The translations under genes and the position numbers were made by a program. DNA of 38,277 nt. Source: an uncultured Maribacter sp. GTDB taxonomy: Bacteria; Bacteroidota; Bacteroidia; Flavobacteriales; Flavobacteriaceae. Below the pieces are notes generated by a model. That model saw nothing but the letters and a program-made list of their open reading frames with translations, had not been told where the DNA came from and did no database searches. The DNA is taken from the NCBI GenBank assembly GCA_937125035.1, contig CAKZLG010000225.1, forward strand, positions 1 through 38,277, read 5' to 3'. Shown one piece after another: positions 2,089-36,683 of the stretch. Positions within the stretch are counted from its first letter, which is position 1, and every line of letters starts with the position of its first letter.

Positions 2089-3318
2089 TTGAAACTGCAC
2101 CTGCACGGGCCAACCACCAACATTTTAAATGCGCACCTACAGATCACTGGCTCCAAGAGTGAGACCAATAGGTCCCTCTTATTGGCGGCGCTGTACAAGA
2201 ACATTGCCATCGAGAACCCCTCCAATTCAGACGACGCCCAGGTCATGCGGGCCGGATTGGAAAAGAAGGGCGGCCTTGTGGACATTCATCACGCGGGCAC
2301 GGCCATGCGGTTCCTTACCAGCTACTTTGCCAGCCGGCCCAACATGGAAATAGAGCTTACCGGTTCCCAACGTATGACGGAACGGCCCATAAAGATTTTG
2401 GTGGAAGCCCTTAGGTCTTTAGGAGCGGAGATTGCGTATCTTAAAAATGAAGGGTATCCGCCGTTACGTATATCCGGAAAGGAATTGACGGAAAACAAGG
2501 TGTCCCTCCCTGCCAATGTAAGTAGTCAGTACATCTCTTCTCTTCTGCTGGTGGCGCCGAGTCTTAAAAATGGTATTGAAGTGGAACTGGTGGGCGAAAT
2601 CACCTCGGTGCCCTATATAAAAATGACCTTGGCCTTACTGAATGAAATTGGGGTTGAAACCCGGTTTACCGGGCAGACCATCCGTGTGTTCCCCATGGCG
2701 GAAGCGGATCCTTTGACCCTTACGGTTGAGTCTGATTGGAGTTCTGCCTCTTATTTCTATTCCATGGTGGCCATGGCTCAGGTGGGTTCGGAAATCACAC
2801 TTTCGGCCTATAAAAGGAAAAGCCTCCAGGGAGATAGTGTGTTGGCCTCCATTTATACCCATTTTGGCGTCACCACCCAGTATGGCCAAGATAACATCAC
2901 CTTAAAAAAAGCAAGCGTGCATGATTCCAAAAAATTGCAGGTGGATTTGATAAATGCCCCAGATATAGCACAGACCATTGCGGTCACCTGTTTTGGTCTG
3001 GGGGCAGAGTGTCTGCTCACCGGGTTGCATACGCTGAAGATAAAGGAAACCGATCGTTTGGTGGCGTTGGAAACGGAACTCAAAAAAATGGGGGCGAACA
3101 TAACCGTAACGGACAAGACGTTGCAATTGGGCATGGCCCAGCAGATACGAAGCGGGGTGGCCATAGACACCTATAACGACCATAGAATGGCCATGGCCTT
3201 TGCCCCAATGGCGCTTAAAACGGATGTTATTATCAATGATGCGGGTGTGGTCTCCAAATCCTATCCGGACTTTTGGGCGGATATGCAAACGCTGGGCTTT
3301 CAAGTAATTGAATTATAA
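2089..3318 (+). CDS. aroA: 3-phosphoshikimate 1-carboxyvinyltransferase (EPSP synthase)
   Basis: AroA transfers enolpyruvate from PEP to shikimate-3-phosphate, the sixth step of the shikimate pathway to chorismate. The 409-residue product carries GSKSETNRSLLLAAL near the N-terminus, AGTAMRFLT near 70, TGSQRMTERP near 93, SSQYISSLLL, DWSSASYFY, IKETDRL near 320 and YNDHRMAMAF near 365, covering the substrate phosphate and PEP contacts of both domains. The start appears to be TTG at 2089, since no in-frame ATG lies close by and the reading MKLHLHGPT suits the family. It is about 30-40 residues shorter than the usual 430-450 residue enzymes, as is common in flavobacteria. Confidence 0.94.
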   Translation: MKLHLHGPTTNILNAHLQITGSKSETNRSLLLAALYKNIAIENPSNSDDAQVMRAGLEKKGGLVDIHHAGTAMRFLTSYFASRPNMEIELTGSQRMTERPIKILVEALRSLGAEIAYLKNEGYPPLRISGKELTENKVSLPANVSSQYISSLLLVAPSLKNGIEVELVGEITSVPYIKMTLALLNEIGVETRFTGQTIRVFPMAEADPLTLTVESDWSSASYFYSMVAMAQVGSEITLSAYKRKSLQGDSVLASIYTHFGVTTQYGQDNITLKKASVHDSKKLQVDLINAPDIAQTIAVTCFGLGAECLLTGLHTLKIKETDRLVALETELKKMGANITVTDKTLQLGMAQQIRSGVAIDTYNDHRMAMAFAPMALKTDVIINDAGVVSKSYPDFWADMQTLGFQVIEL

Positions 3319-4552: not shown

Positions 4553-5599
4553 ATGAACGTGGAAACAAAGAAGAAAGACGTAAGGGCCCTTACAAAGGAA
4601 CAGCTTCGTGGTTTTTTTGAGGCTCAGGGAGACAAGGCCTTTCGTGGCAACCAGGTCTATGAATGGTTGTGGCAAAAATCCGCCCATTCCTTTGAGGTCA
4701 TGACCAACCTTTCCAAGGAGTGCCGTGCCATGTTGCAGGAGCACTTTGTCATTAACCATATTCAGGTAGATCAAATGCAGCGCAGTAGTGACGGTACCAT
4801 AAAAAATGCGGTACGGCTACATGACGGTTTGGTGGTGGAGTCCGTCCTTATCCCCACCAAGACCAGGACCACGGCCTGCGTCTCCAGTCAGGTGGGCTGC
4901 AGTTTGGACTGTAAATTCTGTGCCACGGCAAGGTTAAAGCGCATGCGCAACCTTCAGCCAGATGAGATCTATGATCAGGTAGTGGCCATAGACAATGAAA
5001 GTAGGTTGTATTTTGATAGGCCTTTGAGCAATATTGTTTTTATGGGTATGGGAGAGCCCCTTATGAACTATAACAATGTACTCAAGGCCATAGAAAAGAT
5101 CACTTCCCCAGAGGGCCTGGGCATGTCTCCAAAACGCATCACGGTCTCTACCTCTGGAGTGCCCAAGATGATCAAAAAAATGGCCGATGGGGAGGTGCGC
5201 TTCAAGCTAGCCGTTTCCCTGCATTCCGCCATAGATGAGGTCCGTACCTCCATCATGCCTTTCAATGCTACCTTTACCTTAGCAGACCTCAGGGAAGCAC
5301 TTCAATATTGGTATGAAAAGACCAAGAGCAGGATCACGTATGAATATGTAGTGTGGGAGGGCATCAACGATACCCAGAAAGATGTGGATGCCTTGGTGGA
5401 GTTCTGTAGGTTTGCCCCATCCAAAGTAAATCTCATTGAATACAATCCCATTGACGATGGTACGTTCAAACAGGCCTCCAACACCGCTTTGGAGCGCTAT
5501 ATCAAAACCTTGGAGGCGCACGGCATAACCGTTACCGTGCGCCGATCCCGCGGTAAGGACATTGATGCTGCCTGTGGGCAGCTCGCCAATAAATCATAG
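4553..5599 (+). CDS. rlmN: 23S rRNA (adenine2503-C2)/tRNA methyltransferase, radical SAM
   Basis: RlmN methylates C2 of A2503 in 23S rRNA (and A37 of some tRNAs) by radical SAM chemistry. The 348-residue product has the 4Fe-4S motif C116-x3-C120-x2-C123 (GCSLDCKFC), the SAM-binding MGMGEPLMNY, and the two further cysteines of the catalytic cycle: C109 in TACVSSQVGC and C341 in DAACGQL near the C-terminus. The ATG gives the start MNVETKKKDVRALTKEQL, in line with the family. No promoter motif was seen between the queA terminator and the start, so how it is transcribed is unclear. Confidence 0.96.
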   Translation: MNVETKKKDVRALTKEQLRGFFEAQGDKAFRGNQVYEWLWQKSAHSFEVMTNLSKECRAMLQEHFVINHIQVDQMQRSSDGTIKNAVRLHDGLVVESVLIPTKTRTTACVSSQVGCSLDCKFCATARLKRMRNLQPDEIYDQVVAIDNESRLYFDRPLSNIVFMGMGEPLMNYNNVLKAIEKITSPEGLGMSPKRITVSTSGVPKMIKKMADGEVRFKLAVSLHSAIDEVRTSIMPFNATFTLADLREALQYWYEKTKSRITYEYVVWEGINDTQKDVDALVEFCRFAPSKVNLIEYNPIDDGTFKQASNTALERYIKTLEAHGITVTVRRSRGKDIDAACGQLANKS

Positions 5600-32687: not shown

Positions 32688-34595
32688 ATGAGTAAGAACA
32701 ATGATTTTGACAATATTTCTTTTGATTTGCCCAAGAATCAAAGCAATGTGATAAAAGTGATCGGCGTAGGTGGCGGTGGCAGCAATGCCATTAACCACAT
32801 GTTCCAGGCAGGCATCAACGGGGTGGACTTCGTTATTTGCAACACAGATGCCCAAGCTTTGGAAAATAGCCCGGTGCCCAACAAAATACAATTGGGGGTC
32901 TCATTAACGGAAGGATTGGGGGCTGGTGCCAATCCTGAGGTTGGGGAACAGGCCGCCATGGAGAGCATGGAAGAGATCAAACGTATGTTGGATACGACCA
33001 CCAAGATGATCTTCATTACCGCTGGTATGGGCGGGGGTACGGGAACTGGTGCCGCCCCTGTTATTGCAAAACAAGCTAAGGAAATGGATGTTCTTACCGT
33101 GGGCATAGTGACCATGCCTTTCCAATTTGAAGGTAAGATGCGGTGTGAACAAGCACAAAAAGGCATAGAGAAACTGCGCAAAAACGTAGACTCCCTTATT
33201 GTTATCAACAACAATAAACTGCGGGAAGTGTACGGAAACTTGGGCTTTAAGGCAGGGTTCTCAAAAGCGGATGAGGTTTTGGCCACGGCAGCACGTGGTA
33301 TTGCAGAGGTCATTACCCACCATTACACCCAGAATATAGATTTACGGGATGCCAAGACAGTACTTTCCAATAGCGGTACGGCCATAATGGGTTCTGCCAT
33401 TGCATCTGGATCGGCACGGGCCAATGAGGCCATTATGAAGGCTTTGGATTCACCGTTGTTGAACGATAACAAGATCAACGGTGCCAAGAACGTATTGCTC
33501 CTGATCGTATCCGGTTCACAGGAAATCACCATAGATGAGATCGGGGAGATAAATGACCACATTCAAATAGAGGCCGGTTATGGCGCCAACATCATCATGG
33601 GTGTGGGTGAAGATGAGAGTTTGGGAGAATCCATTGCCGTAACGGTCATTGCCACTGGTTTCAATGTGGAGCAGCAAGATGATATTGTGAACACGGAGAG
33701 CAAAAAAATCATCCATACCTTGGATGACGAGCAGAGGGCCGAGAAGAAGTTGATGCAAAAGGGCACGGTTCATACCTTGGAGATGGAAGAGGACGCCCCG
33801 GAAACCCCTGAAATGAACTATGAACTGTTGGAAGATGGTGATTTTGACCTTATCCCAACAACAAACTATATCAAGAACTTCAATGTCTTTTACGAAGAGG
33901 TCATTGCGGATAACGTTGGTGTAGAGGATGATTTTGTCATCATAGCCTCTTCAGAGGCGCTTAAGAACATAGAGGTAGTTGAGCCGGAAGTCCTAAAGGG
34001 CAAGGAAGAGGATCAGATTGCCCTGAGTTTTGAATTGCCCTTGGTTACGGAAGACGAAGAGGAACGGGAGAACGTCATCACTTTTGATTTGGATGATGAT
34101 GTGCGCGATCTCAATGTTAAGGACAGTATAGAGGTAATACCCGTTTTGGAGTACAACAAACATGGGGAAAAGCGCTATAGCCTGGATGATTACATGGAGT
34201 TGGAAAATGAGCTCACCGGAGCCAAATCAAAGGCAGAGGAATTTGAGCCCAAAATCGTTGAAGATGAATTGGTCTTTGAAAAAAGAACCGTGGCCAAAGA
34301 GACCCCATCTCAAGAAAAAGGAGCCGCAGACCCCATGGAGACCCCTATAGAGGAGCTGTTAAAGGAAAGAGCGGATGAGCGACGCAGAAAACTAAAGGAT
34401 TTCAACTATAAGTTCAAGAACAGTATGAGCAATATAGACGAGATAGAAAAAGAACCCGCGTACAAAAGGCAGGGCGTACATTTAGAGGACAGGCCCCGGG
34501 AAAGTAAGATATCCCGTACCAGCTTGGGCGGTGATAGCAATGATGAGATACAACTGCGCTCCAACAATTCCTTTTTACATGACAATGTAGATTAG
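32688..34595 (+). CDS. ftsZ: cell division tubulin-like GTPase FtsZ
   Basis: FtsZ polymerises into the Z ring. The 635-residue product has the GTPase core in about 1-335, with VIGVGGGGSNAINHM, the tubulin signature GGGTGTGA near 115-122 and the T7 catalytic loop NIDLRDAKTV. A 300-residue acidic, low-complexity C-terminal linker follows, much longer than the roughly 50-70 residues of E. coli, then a conserved tail RSNNSFLHDNVD. Long linkers are known in flavobacterial FtsZ. It is the last gene of the dcw run, followed by a terminator. Confidence 0.97.
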   Translation: MSKNNDFDNISFDLPKNQSNVIKVIGVGGGGSNAINHMFQAGINGVDFVICNTDAQALENSPVPNKIQLGVSLTEGLGAGANPEVGEQAAMESMEEIKRMLDTTTKMIFITAGMGGGTGTGAAPVIAKQAKEMDVLTVGIVTMPFQFEGKMRCEQAQKGIEKLRKNVDSLIVINNNKLREVYGNLGFKAGFSKADEVLATAARGIAEVITHHYTQNIDLRDAKTVLSNSGTAIMGSAIASGSARANEAIMKALDSPLLNDNKINGAKNVLLLIVSGSQEITIDEIGEINDHIQIEAGYGANIIMGVGEDESLGESIAVTVIATGFNVEQQDDIVNTESKKIIHTLDDEQRAEKKLMQKGTVHTLEMEEDAPETPEMNYELLEDGDFDLIPTTNYIKNFNVFYEEVIADNVGVEDDFVIIASSEALKNIEVVEPEVLKGKEEDQIALSFELPLVTEDEEERENVITFDLDDDVRDLNVKDSIEVIPVLEYNKHGEKRYSLDDYMELENELTGAKSKAEEFEPKIVEDELVFEKRTVAKETPSQEKGAADPMETPIEELLKERADERRRKLKDFNYKFKNSMSNIDEIEKEPAYKRQGVHLEDRPRESKISRTSLGGDSNDEIQLRSNNSFLHDNVD

Positions 34596-34617
34596 CACTT
34601 CGTAATATGGAGAAGTA

Positions 34618-34656
34618 AAACCCGGAATCCCATGTGGTTTTCGGGTTTATTTTTTA
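34618..34656 (+). terminator. terminator ending the dcw operon
   Basis: AAACCCGGAA (34618-34627) pairs with TTTCGGGTTT (34639-34648) including one G.T pair; the loop is followed by ATTTTTTAT. It lies 22 nt after the ftsZ stop and is the first clear terminator since mraZ. Confidence 0.8.
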
Positions 34657-34662
34657 TCTTCG
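34655..34662 (+). promoter_or_regulatory. possible -7 box of yqeY
   Basis: TATCTTCG (one mismatch to TAnnTTTG) overlaps the U-tract of the ftsZ terminator and lies 20 nt before the yqeY ATG. The -33 element is unclear. Confidence 0.35.
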
Positions 34663-34682
34663 TGCCGCTAAAAAGAAAACGC

Positions 34683-35129
34683 ATGGGCCTGCAGCAAAAA
34701 GTAATGGATCAGATGAAAATTGCCATGAAGGCCAAGGACACGGTGGCCTTGGAATCCCTCAGGGCCATTAAATCAGCATTGCTGTTGGCACAGACCAGTG
34801 GCAAGGGGGAATTGAGTGAGGAAGAGGAGGTCCTTTTGGTGCAAAAATTGGTAAAGCAGCGCAAGGACAGTGCCGCCATATTCCAGGAACAGGGTAGGGA
34901 GGACCTTGCCCAACCGGAGTTAGATCAAGTGGCCGTCATTGAGAAGTTCTTACCGGAGCAGTTAAGTAAGGAAGAGATAGAAAAAGTCGTAGTACAGACC
35001 ATAGCTGCTTTAGGAGCGGATGGCATGAAGGACATGGGCAAGGTGATGGGAGTGGTCTCCAAGGAATTGGCAGGCCAAGCGGACGGCAAGGCCATTTCGG
35101 CCATAGTAAAAGCAAAGTTAAGTTCATAA
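34683..35129 (+). CDS. yqeY: GatB/YqeY domain protein
   Basis: A 148-residue helical protein related to the tail domain of GatB, the tRNA-dependent amidotransferase subunit; stand-alone YqeY proteins have no firmly known role but a tRNA link is suspected. MGLQQKVMDQMKIAMKAKDT, LESLRAIKSALLLAQ, KQRKDSAAIFQEQGREDLA, EKFLPEQLSKEEIEKVV and GMKDMGKVMGVVSKELAGQA follow the family and length is normal. ATG 34683 is preferred; the longer frame from 34632 runs through the ftsZ terminator. The tRNA-Arg gene begins only 6 nt after the stop. Confidence 0.93.
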   Translation: MGLQQKVMDQMKIAMKAKDTVALESLRAIKSALLLAQTSGKGELSEEEEVLLVQKLVKQRKDSAAIFQEQGREDLAQPELDQVAVIEKFLPEQLSKEEIEKVVVQTIAALGADGMKDMGKVMGVVSKELAGQADGKAISAIVKAKLSS

Positions 35130-35135
35130 AAAATT

Positions 35136-35209
35136 GGCCGCGTAGTTCAACTGGATAGAATATCAGGTTTCGGCCCTGAGGGTTGGGGGTTCGAATCCTC
35201 CCGCGGTCA
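35136..35209 (+). tRNA. tRNA-Arg (anticodon TCG)
   Basis: A 74-nt cloverleaf can be folded by hand. Acceptor stem GGCCGCG/CGCGGTC (one G.T), D stem GTTC/GAAT, anticodon stem TCAGG/CCTGA with loop TTTCGGC, 5-nt variable loop, T stem GGGGG/CCTCC with loop TTCGAAT, discriminator A at 35209. The anticodon TCG (35170-35172) reads CGA arginine codons. CCA is not encoded, as is usual in Bacteroidota. It lies 6 nt after yqeY. Confidence 0.95.
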
Positions 35210-35210
35210 C
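35194..35210. repeat. att-like direct repeat, copy 1 (tRNA-Arg 3' end)
   Basis: AATCCTCCCGCGGTCAC covers the 3' T arm, acceptor strand and discriminator base of tRNA-Arg plus one base. An identical 17-bp copy lies at 35374-35390, so the two bracket about 163 bp of unrelated DNA. Tyrosine-recombinase attachment sites typically use tRNA 3' ends like this. Confidence 0.7.
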
Positions 35211-35221
35211 GACACTCAAGA

Positions 35222-35249
35222 AACCACGCTCTTTTTTCAGAGCGTGGTT
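35222..35249 (+). terminator. perfect 11-bp hairpin after tRNA-Arg
   Basis: AACCACGCTCT (35222-35232) and AGAGCGTGGTT (35239-35249) are exact reverse complements with a TTTTTC loop. It may terminate or protect the tRNA transcript; the downstream U-tract is poor (CTGTGTTTC). Confidence 0.6.
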
Positions 35250-35267
35250 CTGTGTTTCAAGAAGGCT

Positions 35268-35285
35268 CAAAAGCCCAAGCTTTTG
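35268..35285. repeat. 7-bp inverted repeat in the inter-repeat segment
   Basis: CAAAAGC (35268-35274) and GCTTTTG (35279-35285) flank CCAA. One of several hairpins packed between the two 17-bp repeats. Confidence 0.5.
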
Positions 35286-35310
35286 TGAACGGATTGAAAT
35301 ACAGAATCAG

Positions 35311-35338
35311 GCCCGCTTTTCGCGGGCTGTGTTTTCTT
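35311..35338 (+). terminator. GC-rich hairpin with T-rich tail
   Basis: GCCCGC (35311-35316) pairs with GCGGGC (35322-35327) around TTTTC; GTGTTTTCTTAT follows. It resembles an intrinsic terminator, although no gene reads into it except tRNA-Arg. Confidence 0.55.
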
Positions 35339-35373
35339 ATTTGCAACATTGGGCTTCAAGGAAAACCGAAGGT

Positions 35374-35390
35374 AATCCTCCCGCGGTCAC
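35374..35390. repeat. att-like direct repeat, copy 2
   Basis: Identical to the last 17 bases around the tRNA-Arg 3' end (35194-35210). The sequence before it does not resemble the rest of the tRNA, so it is a 3'-end fragment, not a decayed second tRNA. A terminator follows directly, as would be expected at the original end of a tRNA gene. Confidence 0.7.
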
Positions 35391-35396
35391 TTTATC

Positions 35397-35429
35397 AAAG
35401 GTCTTTTCTAAAGAAAAGGCTTTTTTTTT
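35397..35429 (+). terminator. intrinsic terminator after repeat copy 2
   Basis: GTCTTTTC (35401-35408) pairs with GAAAAGGC (35413-35420, one T.G), loop TAAA, then nine T residues. A good tRNA-type terminator now separated from tRNA-Arg by the inserted segment. Confidence 0.75.
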
Positions 35430-35564
35430 ATGGTATACTACGTATATAGGAGCAAAAGAGACGGGCGTTTGTACTAGGGGATGACCTCCTCCCTTGAAAA
35501 GAAGATAGACCAACATAGCCAAGGAGAACCTAGTGCCACGATGGGTGGAACCCATGGCCTTTGA
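35430..35564 (+). pseudogene. GIY-YIG nuclease remnant with an in-frame stop
   Basis: One frame of 44 codons reads VYYVYRSKRDGRLY, a TAG stop at 35475, then GMTSSLEKKIDQHSQGEPSA. This matches the start of small GIY-YIG family proteins (YYVYILKSK.DGRLYIG.TSDLE.RI..H..G), with the Ile of the YIG motif replaced by the stop and two residues missing after VY. The frame ends with TGA at 35562; the +1 frame briefly continues the expected PW segment (WNPWPL), suggesting a frameshift. The rest of the domain is absent and unrelated coding sequence follows. Such genes usually have about 80-100 codons. Confidence 0.72.
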
Positions 35565-35998
35565 TGAGAGGGGGCAATCTTTACACATTATGGAGCGAGG
35601 GCACGGTATTAAAACTGGGCATATCCGCAAACAACGGGGAAAATTGGCGGGAGGAAATAATTTCTGAGGGGGGGCAGATGGCCTACTTCCCTTATTTGGA
35701 ACCCATGGGCAATAGTCTGTTGTGCACTTGGGTCTCAGGATTTGAGGAGGACATCAGACACCATGCAGCAGCGCTGAGCATTACGGATAACGAGGTATTT
35801 GTGCATGAACTACAGCCACAAAAGTTGGATATTTGGTCCAGATTCGTGGCCGAGGAATATCAGCGGACCAATGGTGGGGAGTATTTTCCTATCATCCCAC
35901 TATCCAATGGAAATATAGGGATGGCCACCCCCGTACAGAACAAAAACGGAAATAGACTTGGCTTTACGTGGTGGGAATTGGAACTCAACGAATTTTAG
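35564..35998 (+). pseudogene. BNR/sialidase-like C-terminal fragment
   Basis: An open frame of about 145 codons with no credible start (a TTG at 35561 and ATG at 35564 lie at the junction with the GIY-YIG remnant). It has an Asp-box-like SANNGENW near residue 23, MAYFPYLEPMGNSLLCTWVS and a final GFTWWELELNEF, which look like blades of a beta-propeller such as exo-sialidases or related secreted glycan-binding enzymes. No signal peptide or catalytic N-terminal part is present, so this is probably the tail of a larger gene brought here by recombination. Family assignment is tentative; it could also be a short propeller fragment of another kind. Confidence 0.5.
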
Positions 35999-36320
35999 AG
36001 GTTGGTCCCCCCCTGCGGTTAATTTCTTGCGCAATACGGCAGCAGGCTATTCCTTTGTAGTATGAAGCTTCTTAAGTATGGCACCGTGACGCCTATCAAA
36101 GCTGAATAGTGTACAAAGGGAACCCTGTGTTCACAAAATAACCAAAGGGTGGGGCCTCTAGACGACTTTATAAATGATTGGAGGGCCTATGCGAAATAAA
36201 AAGGTCCTTGGTTTCAACGGTCTGTCCCTTAGCGGTGCGATGGTTTGCATGGTGTTGGTGCAAGCGGAAGGTACGGTGGTATTGGGCGGTTGGCCGTAAC
36301 ACCAACCGCAATCAATTATC
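35999..36320. other. gene-free, decayed stretch
   Basis: No reading frame here is convincing. Short frames (for example 36189-36299 starting MRNKKVLGFNGLSLSGAM) are interrupted and match nothing I recognise. Base composition is less regular than in flanking genes, and it is probably degraded coding sequence. Confidence 0.5.
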
Positions 36321-36683
36321 CTATGGTCTTTCTTTTTTTTGCCAAGGAAGCTTGCCTTCTATCTCCACTTCTATGGACAAGCTCAAGAAGGTTCTTATTA
36401 AGACAATAAGGGCCAGGGTAAGGGCGGCGTCCATGGTGGGTTCCAACACCACCGTTGAAATAATGTCGCCTGCAACCAATATCTCAAGACCCAATAAAAT
36501 ACCCTTCCCCAGTTCTCTCCTAAGCATTTTATAATCCCTCCCTGCAGGACCTTGAAGGGAAAAGACATACCTGATCAGGGCAATGCCCACCGCAAGGACC
36601 ATGGTCACAATGCCTGTGGCCTCTATGGCATAGGCTATGTAATCTATGTATAATTTAAAGTTTTCCATGAATTGGGTGTCCAT
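36321..36683 (-). CDS. DUF1622 family membrane protein
   Basis: A complete 120-residue membrane protein with three predicted TM segments (about 11-38, 58-79 and 84-103). The block LGKGILLGLEILVAGDIIST with PT a few residues on, then LIVLIRTFLSLSIEVEIEGK, is characteristic of DUF1622. Function of the family is unknown. It is intact, unlike its neighbours, and is the only full gene between the tRNA and mscS. ATG 36683 or the internal one at 36668 could be the start. Confidence 0.85.
   Translation of the reverse strand: MDTQFMENFKLYIDYIAYAIEATGIVTMVLAVGIALIRYVFSLQGPAGRDYKMLRRELGKGILLGLEILVAGDIISTVVLEPTMDAALTLALIVLIRTFLSLSIEVEIEGKLPWQKKERP

Follow-up and report, generated by a model that had tools for sequence, protein, structure and literature searches.

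The locus behind tRNA-Arg(TCG) of an uncultured Maribacter sp. raises the question of why the 3' end of this tRNA is found twice, and what the DNA between the two copies is. The window, meaning the whole 38,277-nt stretch of DNA that was analyzed, carries the 17-mer AATCCTCCCGCGGTCAC at positions 35194 to 35210 and again at 35374 to 35390 with no mismatches, 180 bp apart from start to start, exactly as a sequence-only reading of this DNA had it. Because matches to the 17-mer with up to three mismatches averaged 0.04 over 100 shuffles of the window, a chance origin of the repeat was rejected. A search of the host genome (G000; 3.58 Mb in 360 contigs, 92.75% complete) allowing two mismatches returned the two exact 17-mers and one site with two mismatches, and no more. 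The 17-mer was also absent from all 29 other Maribacter tRNA-Arg(TCG) ends that were compared. The features of the locus are as follows.

34683 to 35129 (+): yqeY, the conserved upstream neighbor of the tRNA (Pfam YqeY, E = 7e-45)
35136 to 35210 (+): tRNA-Arg(TCG), the host tRNA, with no encoded CCA (ARAGORN; Rfam tRNA, 60.5 bits)
35194 to 35210 (+): copy 1 of the 17-mer, spanning T-loop base 58 through the nucleotide that follows the discriminator (conventional tRNA numbering)
35211 to 35378 (+): structured unit, of which 163 nt reach to 35373 and the remaining AATCC is shared with copy 2 (150 bits with covariance model R1 and 124.9 bits with R2, both models being built partly from this copy)
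35218 to 35225 (+): 5' strand of the outer helix P0, AAGAAACC; one of eight pairs is broken in the window copy
35222 to 35249 (+): P1, a terminator-like hairpin with a T-rich tail, the outer part of which competes with P0
35249 to 35305 (+): P2, a long hairpin (fold and alignment)
35310 to 35328 (+): P3, a hairpin (terminator search and fold)
35331 to 35338 (+): 3' strand of P0, GTTTTCTT, followed by a conserved ATTTGCA
35360 to 35378 (+): P4, the terminal hairpin, GGAAAACCGAAGGTAATCC, its final AATCC common to copy 2
35374 to 35390 (+): copy 2 of the tRNA 3' end, an exact repeat of the 17-mer
35397 to 35432 (+): terminator-like stem and T run (terminator search)

Upstream of the tRNA is a cluster of cell-division and cell-wall genes, the last of which are ftsA, ftsZ, and yqeY (ftsZ and yqeY named by Pfam, the others assigned from translations), and yqeY preceded tRNA-Arg(TCG) at 39 of the 40 loci checked. 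ARAGORN identified one tRNA in the window, and only one scored above the Rfam threshold; a decayed second tRNA at copy 2 was rejected on these results. Copy 2 therefore lacks tRNA-like surroundings, as had been claimed, and gives no indication of a tRNA relic; the bases before it form the hairpin at 35360 to 35378, the conserved end of the unit. The terminator that the sequence-only reading had placed beyond copy 2 was recovered as a terminator-like stem at 35397 to 35424. Where relatives lack the unit, the tRNA is directly followed by a terminator-like stem (identified by eye), and we infer that the stem and T run at 35397 to 35432 are the older terminator, displaced from tRNA-Arg(TCG). The view of the segment as a distinct, tiny, and gene-free piece of DNA behind the tRNA was supported, and Pfam searches of the six ORFs around the site agreed with its reported lack of an integrase, as no integrase domain was present in any of them. 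No inverted pair of at least 12 bases was found at 34900 to 35700. Elsewhere in the window, an ORF on the reverse strand (36324 to 36683) encodes a DUF1622 protein (Pfam, E = 2.8e-20).

The segment between the copies is laid out as a unit in which P0 encloses P1, P2, and P3, with P4 coming last and ending in AATCC. Terminator-like stems were identified within it at 35222 to 35249 and 35310 to 35328, and the number of terminator-like sites on both strands at 34500 to 36200 was six, against 2.2 expected from shuffles. The fold of 35211 to 35440 stood far above those of shuffled sequences (z = -5.6). From an alignment of 33 of 36 units (L157, L161, and L163 were left out), two-sided changes were identified at 28 of 36 pairs. 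Paired cells made up 90.4% of this alignment, compared with 76.0% when shuffled and 45 to 52% when the partners were slid, although the excess over the slid versions is partly built in, as the structure was drawn by eye from these same sequences, in place of a first RNAalifold structure that lacked P0, P3, and P4. The outer helix was analyzed separately in 107 units, 13 of 120 having been dropped for want of an anchor. All eight P0 pairs were formed in 72 of them, whereas 300 permutations of the 3' strands under an equally free search gave a mean of 15.8 and a maximum of 24 (an earlier control with a less free search gave 9.2 expected, and the figure of 15.8 was used instead), and 36 of 67 distinct P0 helices were fully paired against 5.1 in permutations; these counts, like those of adjacency and flanks below, come from loci fetched as good hits and so not from a random sample. 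Between the window copy and its sister at locus L050, one P2 pair is C-G here and U-A there in the alignment. Compensatory base-pair changes beyond the controls, the mark of a structured RNA element, were thus found, and on this comparative evidence the unit may be classed as one.

The oppositions at paired positions also bear on which strand would be the RNA. G-T outnumbered A-C by 34 to 3 in P1 and by 42 to 10 in P2, with ratios of only about 1.4 to 1.6 when the strands were swapped, whereas P0 showed no G-T excess (13 G-T and 25 A-C). The asymmetry in P1 and P2 favors the tRNA-sense strand, and points to that strand of the unit acting as RNA. Rfam searches of 16 unit loci at gathering scores returned tRNA and tmRNA only, with no match of the unit to a known Rfam family at the curated score; matches to RAGATH-19 and SSRC10 below threshold were taken as chance.

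To identify how widely the unit occurs, covariance models were built from 14 units (R1) and subsequently from 33 (R2). Units were found with R1 in 28 of 36 Maribacter genomes (E = 0.01) and with R2 in 29 of 36 (E = 0.001). R1 also identified them in 116 of 299 Flavobacteriaceae genomes, representing 99 of 236 genera (E = 1e-4), and in 39 of 395 genomes across Bacteroidia, 33 of which lie outside Flavobacteriaceae. Seven loci outside the family were viewed; at six of them the hit begins no more than seven bases from the end of a tRNA (Cys, Val, Lys, Pro, and two Arg), and at the seventh no tRNA was detected. Across the family the units are 150 to 170 nt long, and their hosts are tRNA and tmRNA genes. 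An exact 19-mer search returned 14 stretches in named genomes, from Maribacter, Zobellia, Pseudozobellia, Nonlabens, Psychroflexus, Muricauda, Marinirhabdus, Ulvibacter, other Flavobacteriaceae, and one Clostridia record; at five of the 14 loci a tRNA or tmRNA is followed by a copy of its own end. No account of these units was recognized in the PMC literature at the level of listings and abstracts, nor in passages of PMC6977970, PMC6429828, PMC2864571, PMC8040213, and PMC7366714.

A search for the segment elsewhere, proposed with the sequence-only reading, identified a second copy in the host genome, about 89 to 90% alike by BLAST, behind tRNA-Arg(ACG) on contig C335 (L050), and a third relative, 86% alike, in Maribacter sp. 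PR1 (G023). Weaker relatives in other Maribacter lie behind tRNA-Arg and tmRNA. The proposed comparison of the yqeY-tRNA-Arg(TCG) locus itself gave a near copy in none of 29 other Maribacter loci (from 29 of the 35 other genomes). These results also bear on the idea that the repeat arose by chance or by a simple tandem duplication of the tRNA region. Near-identical tandem units do occur in several genomes, but the shuffles make a 17-mer repeat by chance very unlikely, the unit has no likeness to a tRNA apart from its end, and the second genomic copy and covarying fold refute both origins further, leaving them a practically negligible probability. BLAST searches of phage and plasmid sequences with the window segment gave no units. 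Exact-pattern scans of IMG/VR gave zero and two stretches, and as the two lie inside phage genes without tRNA ends they were taken as chance and carriage by phages or plasmids was rejected.

The position of the units behind tRNA genes was examined with both models. R1 gave 158 matches, 115 of them at 55 bits or more, of which 114 were kept (an 83-nt match in L087 was left out). Seventy of the 114 touch a tRNA or tmRNA gene called by ARAGORN, a further 41 follow sequence resembling a tRNA 3' end by a loose pattern, and three do neither. The genes touched were those for Arg (three anticodons), tmRNA, Phe, Val (two anticodons), Ser, Tyr, and Ala. From 94 R2 matches in Maribacter, 71 were kept after removal of duplicates at one place, echoes on the opposite strand, and a few additional weak matches; 40 lie within eight bases of a gene (Pro, Ser, Arg, Phe, tmRNA, Met, and Val), and of the other 31 all except L229 follow tRNA-end sequence by eye, in an array, at a contig edge, or with no detected gene. 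Counted by amino acid, the hosts amount to eleven kinds of tRNA or tmRNA.

Whether the sequence after a unit belongs to the host was determined from the 12 bases following the model end, taken without choosing for likeness, in 88 of the 114 units (24 had no tRNA in the fetched flank and two no known end). The flank matched the end of the unit's own tRNA within two mismatches in 45 of the 88, matched partly in four, and did not match in 39; the last figure is an upper bound, as at least L062, L097, L147, and L156 do have a copy but with the model end shifted. Among the 45, another end from the pool fitted better once and tied once. Copies were seen of Arg ends with different acceptor stems and of tmRNA, Tyr, Ser, Pro(TGG), Phe, and Met ends, sometimes in tandem. 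Both flanks in L050 are the end of its own tRNA-Arg(ACG), AATCCTGTCGAGGTCAC. Two flanks are ill fitting: a third copy in the L050 array that resembles an Arg(TCT) end, and L197 (G023), which bears the ends of two different tRNAs. The sequence-only reading had the tRNA regain its 3' end from the incoming copy, which was not borne out here: related units end differently, in AATCCTGTCGAGGTCAC, and the end copied at tRNA-Arg(TCG) is that tRNA's own. Since its closest kin are bounded by the end of tRNA-Arg(ACG), the core appears to have passed from one tRNA to another, with the flank remaining that of each locus.

The AATCC at the start of each flank is less simply assigned. Behind hosts with AATCCC, several copies carry AATCC and then skip one C (tmRNA in L059, L082, L083, and L137; Arg(TCG) in L088; Ser in L127), and a Ser copy in L166 skips one C with one further change. 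With copies one C short behind such hosts, AATCC looks partly unit borne, and the skipped C suggests that the AATCC of the flank derives from the unit. However, where the host has AATCT or AATCG (L098, L102, L107, and L062) the copies carry the host's base, so that the last base at least can be host derived and AATCC is not wholly unit borne.

Other arrangements were observed at these loci. A second, shorter class of unit, beginning GAATAAATAG, lies behind the same tRNAs in L014, L015, L044 (first unit), L103, and L115 and consists of one long hairpin and a short terminal hairpin; in L014, L015, and L044 the end of the host tRNA is repeated in full after it. In L034, small ORFs for GIY-YIG nucleases (1623 to 1865 and 1989 to 2231; 80 amino acids; Pfam E = 5e-17 for the first) lie directly behind tRNA-Arg(TCG), with similar cases in L028 and L029; ORFs of this type are followed by a partial tRNA copy of more than 17 bases and look like tRNA-linked homing-type genes. 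GIY-YIG-like frames, identified by reading, also lie upstream of tRNA-Arg(ACG) in L136 and of tRNA-Ala in L152, bracketed by partial copies of the 5' end of the tRNA.

These results bear on the proposal of a relic attachment site or the scar of a lost integrase-borne island. The scar of a larger deleted island, offered by the sequence-only reading, is at odds with a segment that is a covarying structured unit present at many tRNAs. Islands may indeed use these ends: in G023, units at L007 and L197 follow an isolated 3' fragment of a tRNA, no tRNA being present in the flank that was fetched, and look like the far end of an island splitting the tRNA from its unit. Larger DNA also lies between near-identical units (97 to 98% identical) in L116, where a Fic-like gene separates units at 1455 to 1616 and 3077 to 3238 on the reverse strand, and in L126, where an Rhs-like fragment and an IS-like transposase separate units at 1513 to 1669 and 5116 to 5272 (these genes being named from reading), as if islands there used the tRNA end and unit as a boundary. 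Nevertheless, in the window the inner DNA has conserved structure and is not structureless cargo, the unit recurs at eleven kinds of tRNA or tmRNA, and none of the six nearby ORFs carries an integrase domain, so that this explanation is largely refuted and very improbable.

The descent of the units was examined by comparing them across genera. Nearest-neighbor units mostly had the same host tRNA, and a tree of 113 units (99 host labeled and 14 unlabeled; 24 of 110 branches well supported) required at least 26 host changes, where nine is the least possible and shuffled labels gave a mean of 59.2; L112, close to L083, was left out of the tree and of the neighbor comparison. Units are thus mostly inherited along with their host tRNA but switch hosts at times. 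The window unit grouped with L050, at tRNA-Arg(ACG) of the same genome, and L007, and then with L089, also at tRNA-Arg(ACG), which on the tree reads as a move from tRNA-Arg(ACG) to tRNA-Arg(TCG) within or just before this lineage.

The main rival to an insertion is that the unit and tRNA-end copy at tRNA-Arg(TCG) predate Maribacter and that the interior was overwritten by gene conversion from the tRNA-Arg(ACG) unit, with no recent insertion. Clear units do lie behind yqeY-tRNA-Arg(TCG) in several other genera (L086, L088, L096, L097, L121, L131, L138, and L164); within Maribacter, G003 has a distant unit at this tRNA (48.8 bits) and G002 a weak match further down its array. Given the occurrences in G003 and the other genera, the window unit may have replaced an older one. 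The tRNA-Arg(TCG) terminators of L009 and L011 share the P1 stem (AACCACGC/GCGTGGTT), and the grouping of units by host tRNA also accords with an old resident. Against this, a close unit was kept at none of the 29 other Maribacter loci, and on the tree the window unit is placed with L050, L007, and L089 rather than with L086 at the same locus. In addition, nearest-neighbor pairs within a genome that are marked as different in host are few, the window unit and L050 being the only such pair with both tRNA genes identified. Against an insertion, in turn, no pair of close strains, one empty and one filled, was found. With 0 of 29 near copies on one side and the units in G003, G002, and other genera on the other, fresh insertion and overwriting are both open. 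Gene conversion is considered unlikely but is the alternative to be taken most seriously; the insertion of the segment at the tRNA, as the sequence-only reading proposed, stands as the preferred reading.

Candidate agents of movement were sought by protein domain. RVT_1, the reverse transcriptase (RT) domain, does not track the units, being present in 20 of 36 Maribacter genomes including G000 and found in none of G002, G009, G018, and G021, all of which bear units (G002 has seven unit matches), although loss of the RT after insertion is possible. GIY-YIG was present in all 36 genomes, including frames of about 600 amino acids that we take to be UvrC. The Cas1 domain was found in three of 36 and was absent from G000 (at 92.75% completeness). 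As none of the three tracks the units, Cas1, RT, and GIY-YIG were rejected as agents needed today. A Cas1-like integration of the casposon or CRISPR-like kind, doubling a repeat at the tRNA end, had been considered because casposons insert at tRNA 3' ends with short target duplications of 14 to 15 bp, as described in passages of PMC6977970, and because the logic of an array is alike. Unlike casposons, the unit is 160 nt long with RNA-like covariation, and neither inverted ends nor a Cas1 match in G000 or most unit-bearing Maribacter was found, making this origin extremely improbable.

Taken whole, the explanation we favor, and hold to be probable, is that 35211 to 35378 is a structured, RNA-like trailer unit of tRNA and tmRNA genes that was inserted here with doubling of the tRNA-Arg(TCG) 3' end. 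The unit RNA would arise as the trailing part of a transcript started at the tRNA promoter, with P1 acting as a terminator at which transcription would partly stop, so that a tRNA receiving a unit would keep a terminator, and the folded trailer RNA may then be released. On its presumed arrival at tRNA-Arg(TCG) in this lineage, the AATCC at the unit's 3' end would meet the AATCC of the target T-arm and its 5' end would join the tRNA 3' end; 12 bases would thereby be doubled, or 17 with AATCC. Candidate roles of the unit RNA are termination or trailer control in cis, or that of a released small RNA.

In a bolder and improbable version of the insertion, the unit would be the bacterial equivalent of a SINE, a mobile element that travels as RNA and writes copies of itself into the 3' ends of tRNA and tmRNA genes. 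Its terminal AAUCC would base-pair with the nicked T-arm strand of the target, which would prime copying; with copying primed by the target, the flank would be the target's own sequence, the orientation would be fixed, and 5' shortening would be possible. Eukaryotic tRNA-targeting retroelements (TRE) and SINEs are noncoding, anchored to tRNAs, and found in one orientation. The unit is likewise noncoding, tRNA anchored, and in one orientation, and has 5'-shortened tandem copies, but unlike the tRNA-targeting retroelements it has no link to a reverse transcriptase. Tandem sub-units that are shortened but retain the 3' part were observed in L087, L133, L152, L165, L188, and L195; these would be explained by priming from the 3' side, and by tandem slippage as well.

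The closest known layout is that of E. coli tyrT/tyrV and RtT (rttR), where a 19-base end of tRNA-Tyr, AATCCTTCCCCCACCACCA, recurs three times behind tyrV. At tyrT, 159 bp of unit precede each end copy and the copies start at AATCC, as in Bacteroidia; the same arrangement was found here, with about 160 nt of unit separating copies of the host tRNA 3' end that start at AATCC. By its annotation, RtT is a small RNA that arises through processing of the tyrT transcript. However, R2 did not match the tyrT stretch with filters off and E values up to 1, the Rfam RtT family matched neither the window nor, at gathering scores, any of 16 unit loci, and the fold of the tyrT unit, unlike that of the window unit, does not stand above those of shuffled sequences (z = 0.33). 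Units in Bacteroidia also differ from the tyrT repeats in occurring at many tRNAs and in having a terminator-like hairpin first, whereas the tyrT-type places compared by annotation in K-12 and one other strain are both near narI. The window element thus has a like setting but did not match the RtT family in sequence or structure. Among 5,426 E. coli genomes, RtT units were present in 4,680, at one to nine places each (median of two), and 18 of 9,974 places were on plasmid records.

The 3' ends of tRNA genes are classic landing sites of mobile DNA, and in tyrosine-integrase islands attL and attR are direct repeats of the tRNA 3' part. The locus described here shares with these islands the target end and the direct repeat, but it has no cargo, both copies are local, the DNA between them has a conserved RNA fold, and an integrase domain was found in none of the six nearby ORFs. 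A repeated tRNA end is easily read as an island scar, and as it here marks a widespread, folded, RNA-like unit, island scars called in this way should be verified in Bacteroidia. The resemblance to the tyrT repeats of E. coli, including the AATCC boundary, suggests that distant phyla have a way of doubling tRNA ends in common, and the units in several species offer a means of asking what tRNA trailers do and how they move.
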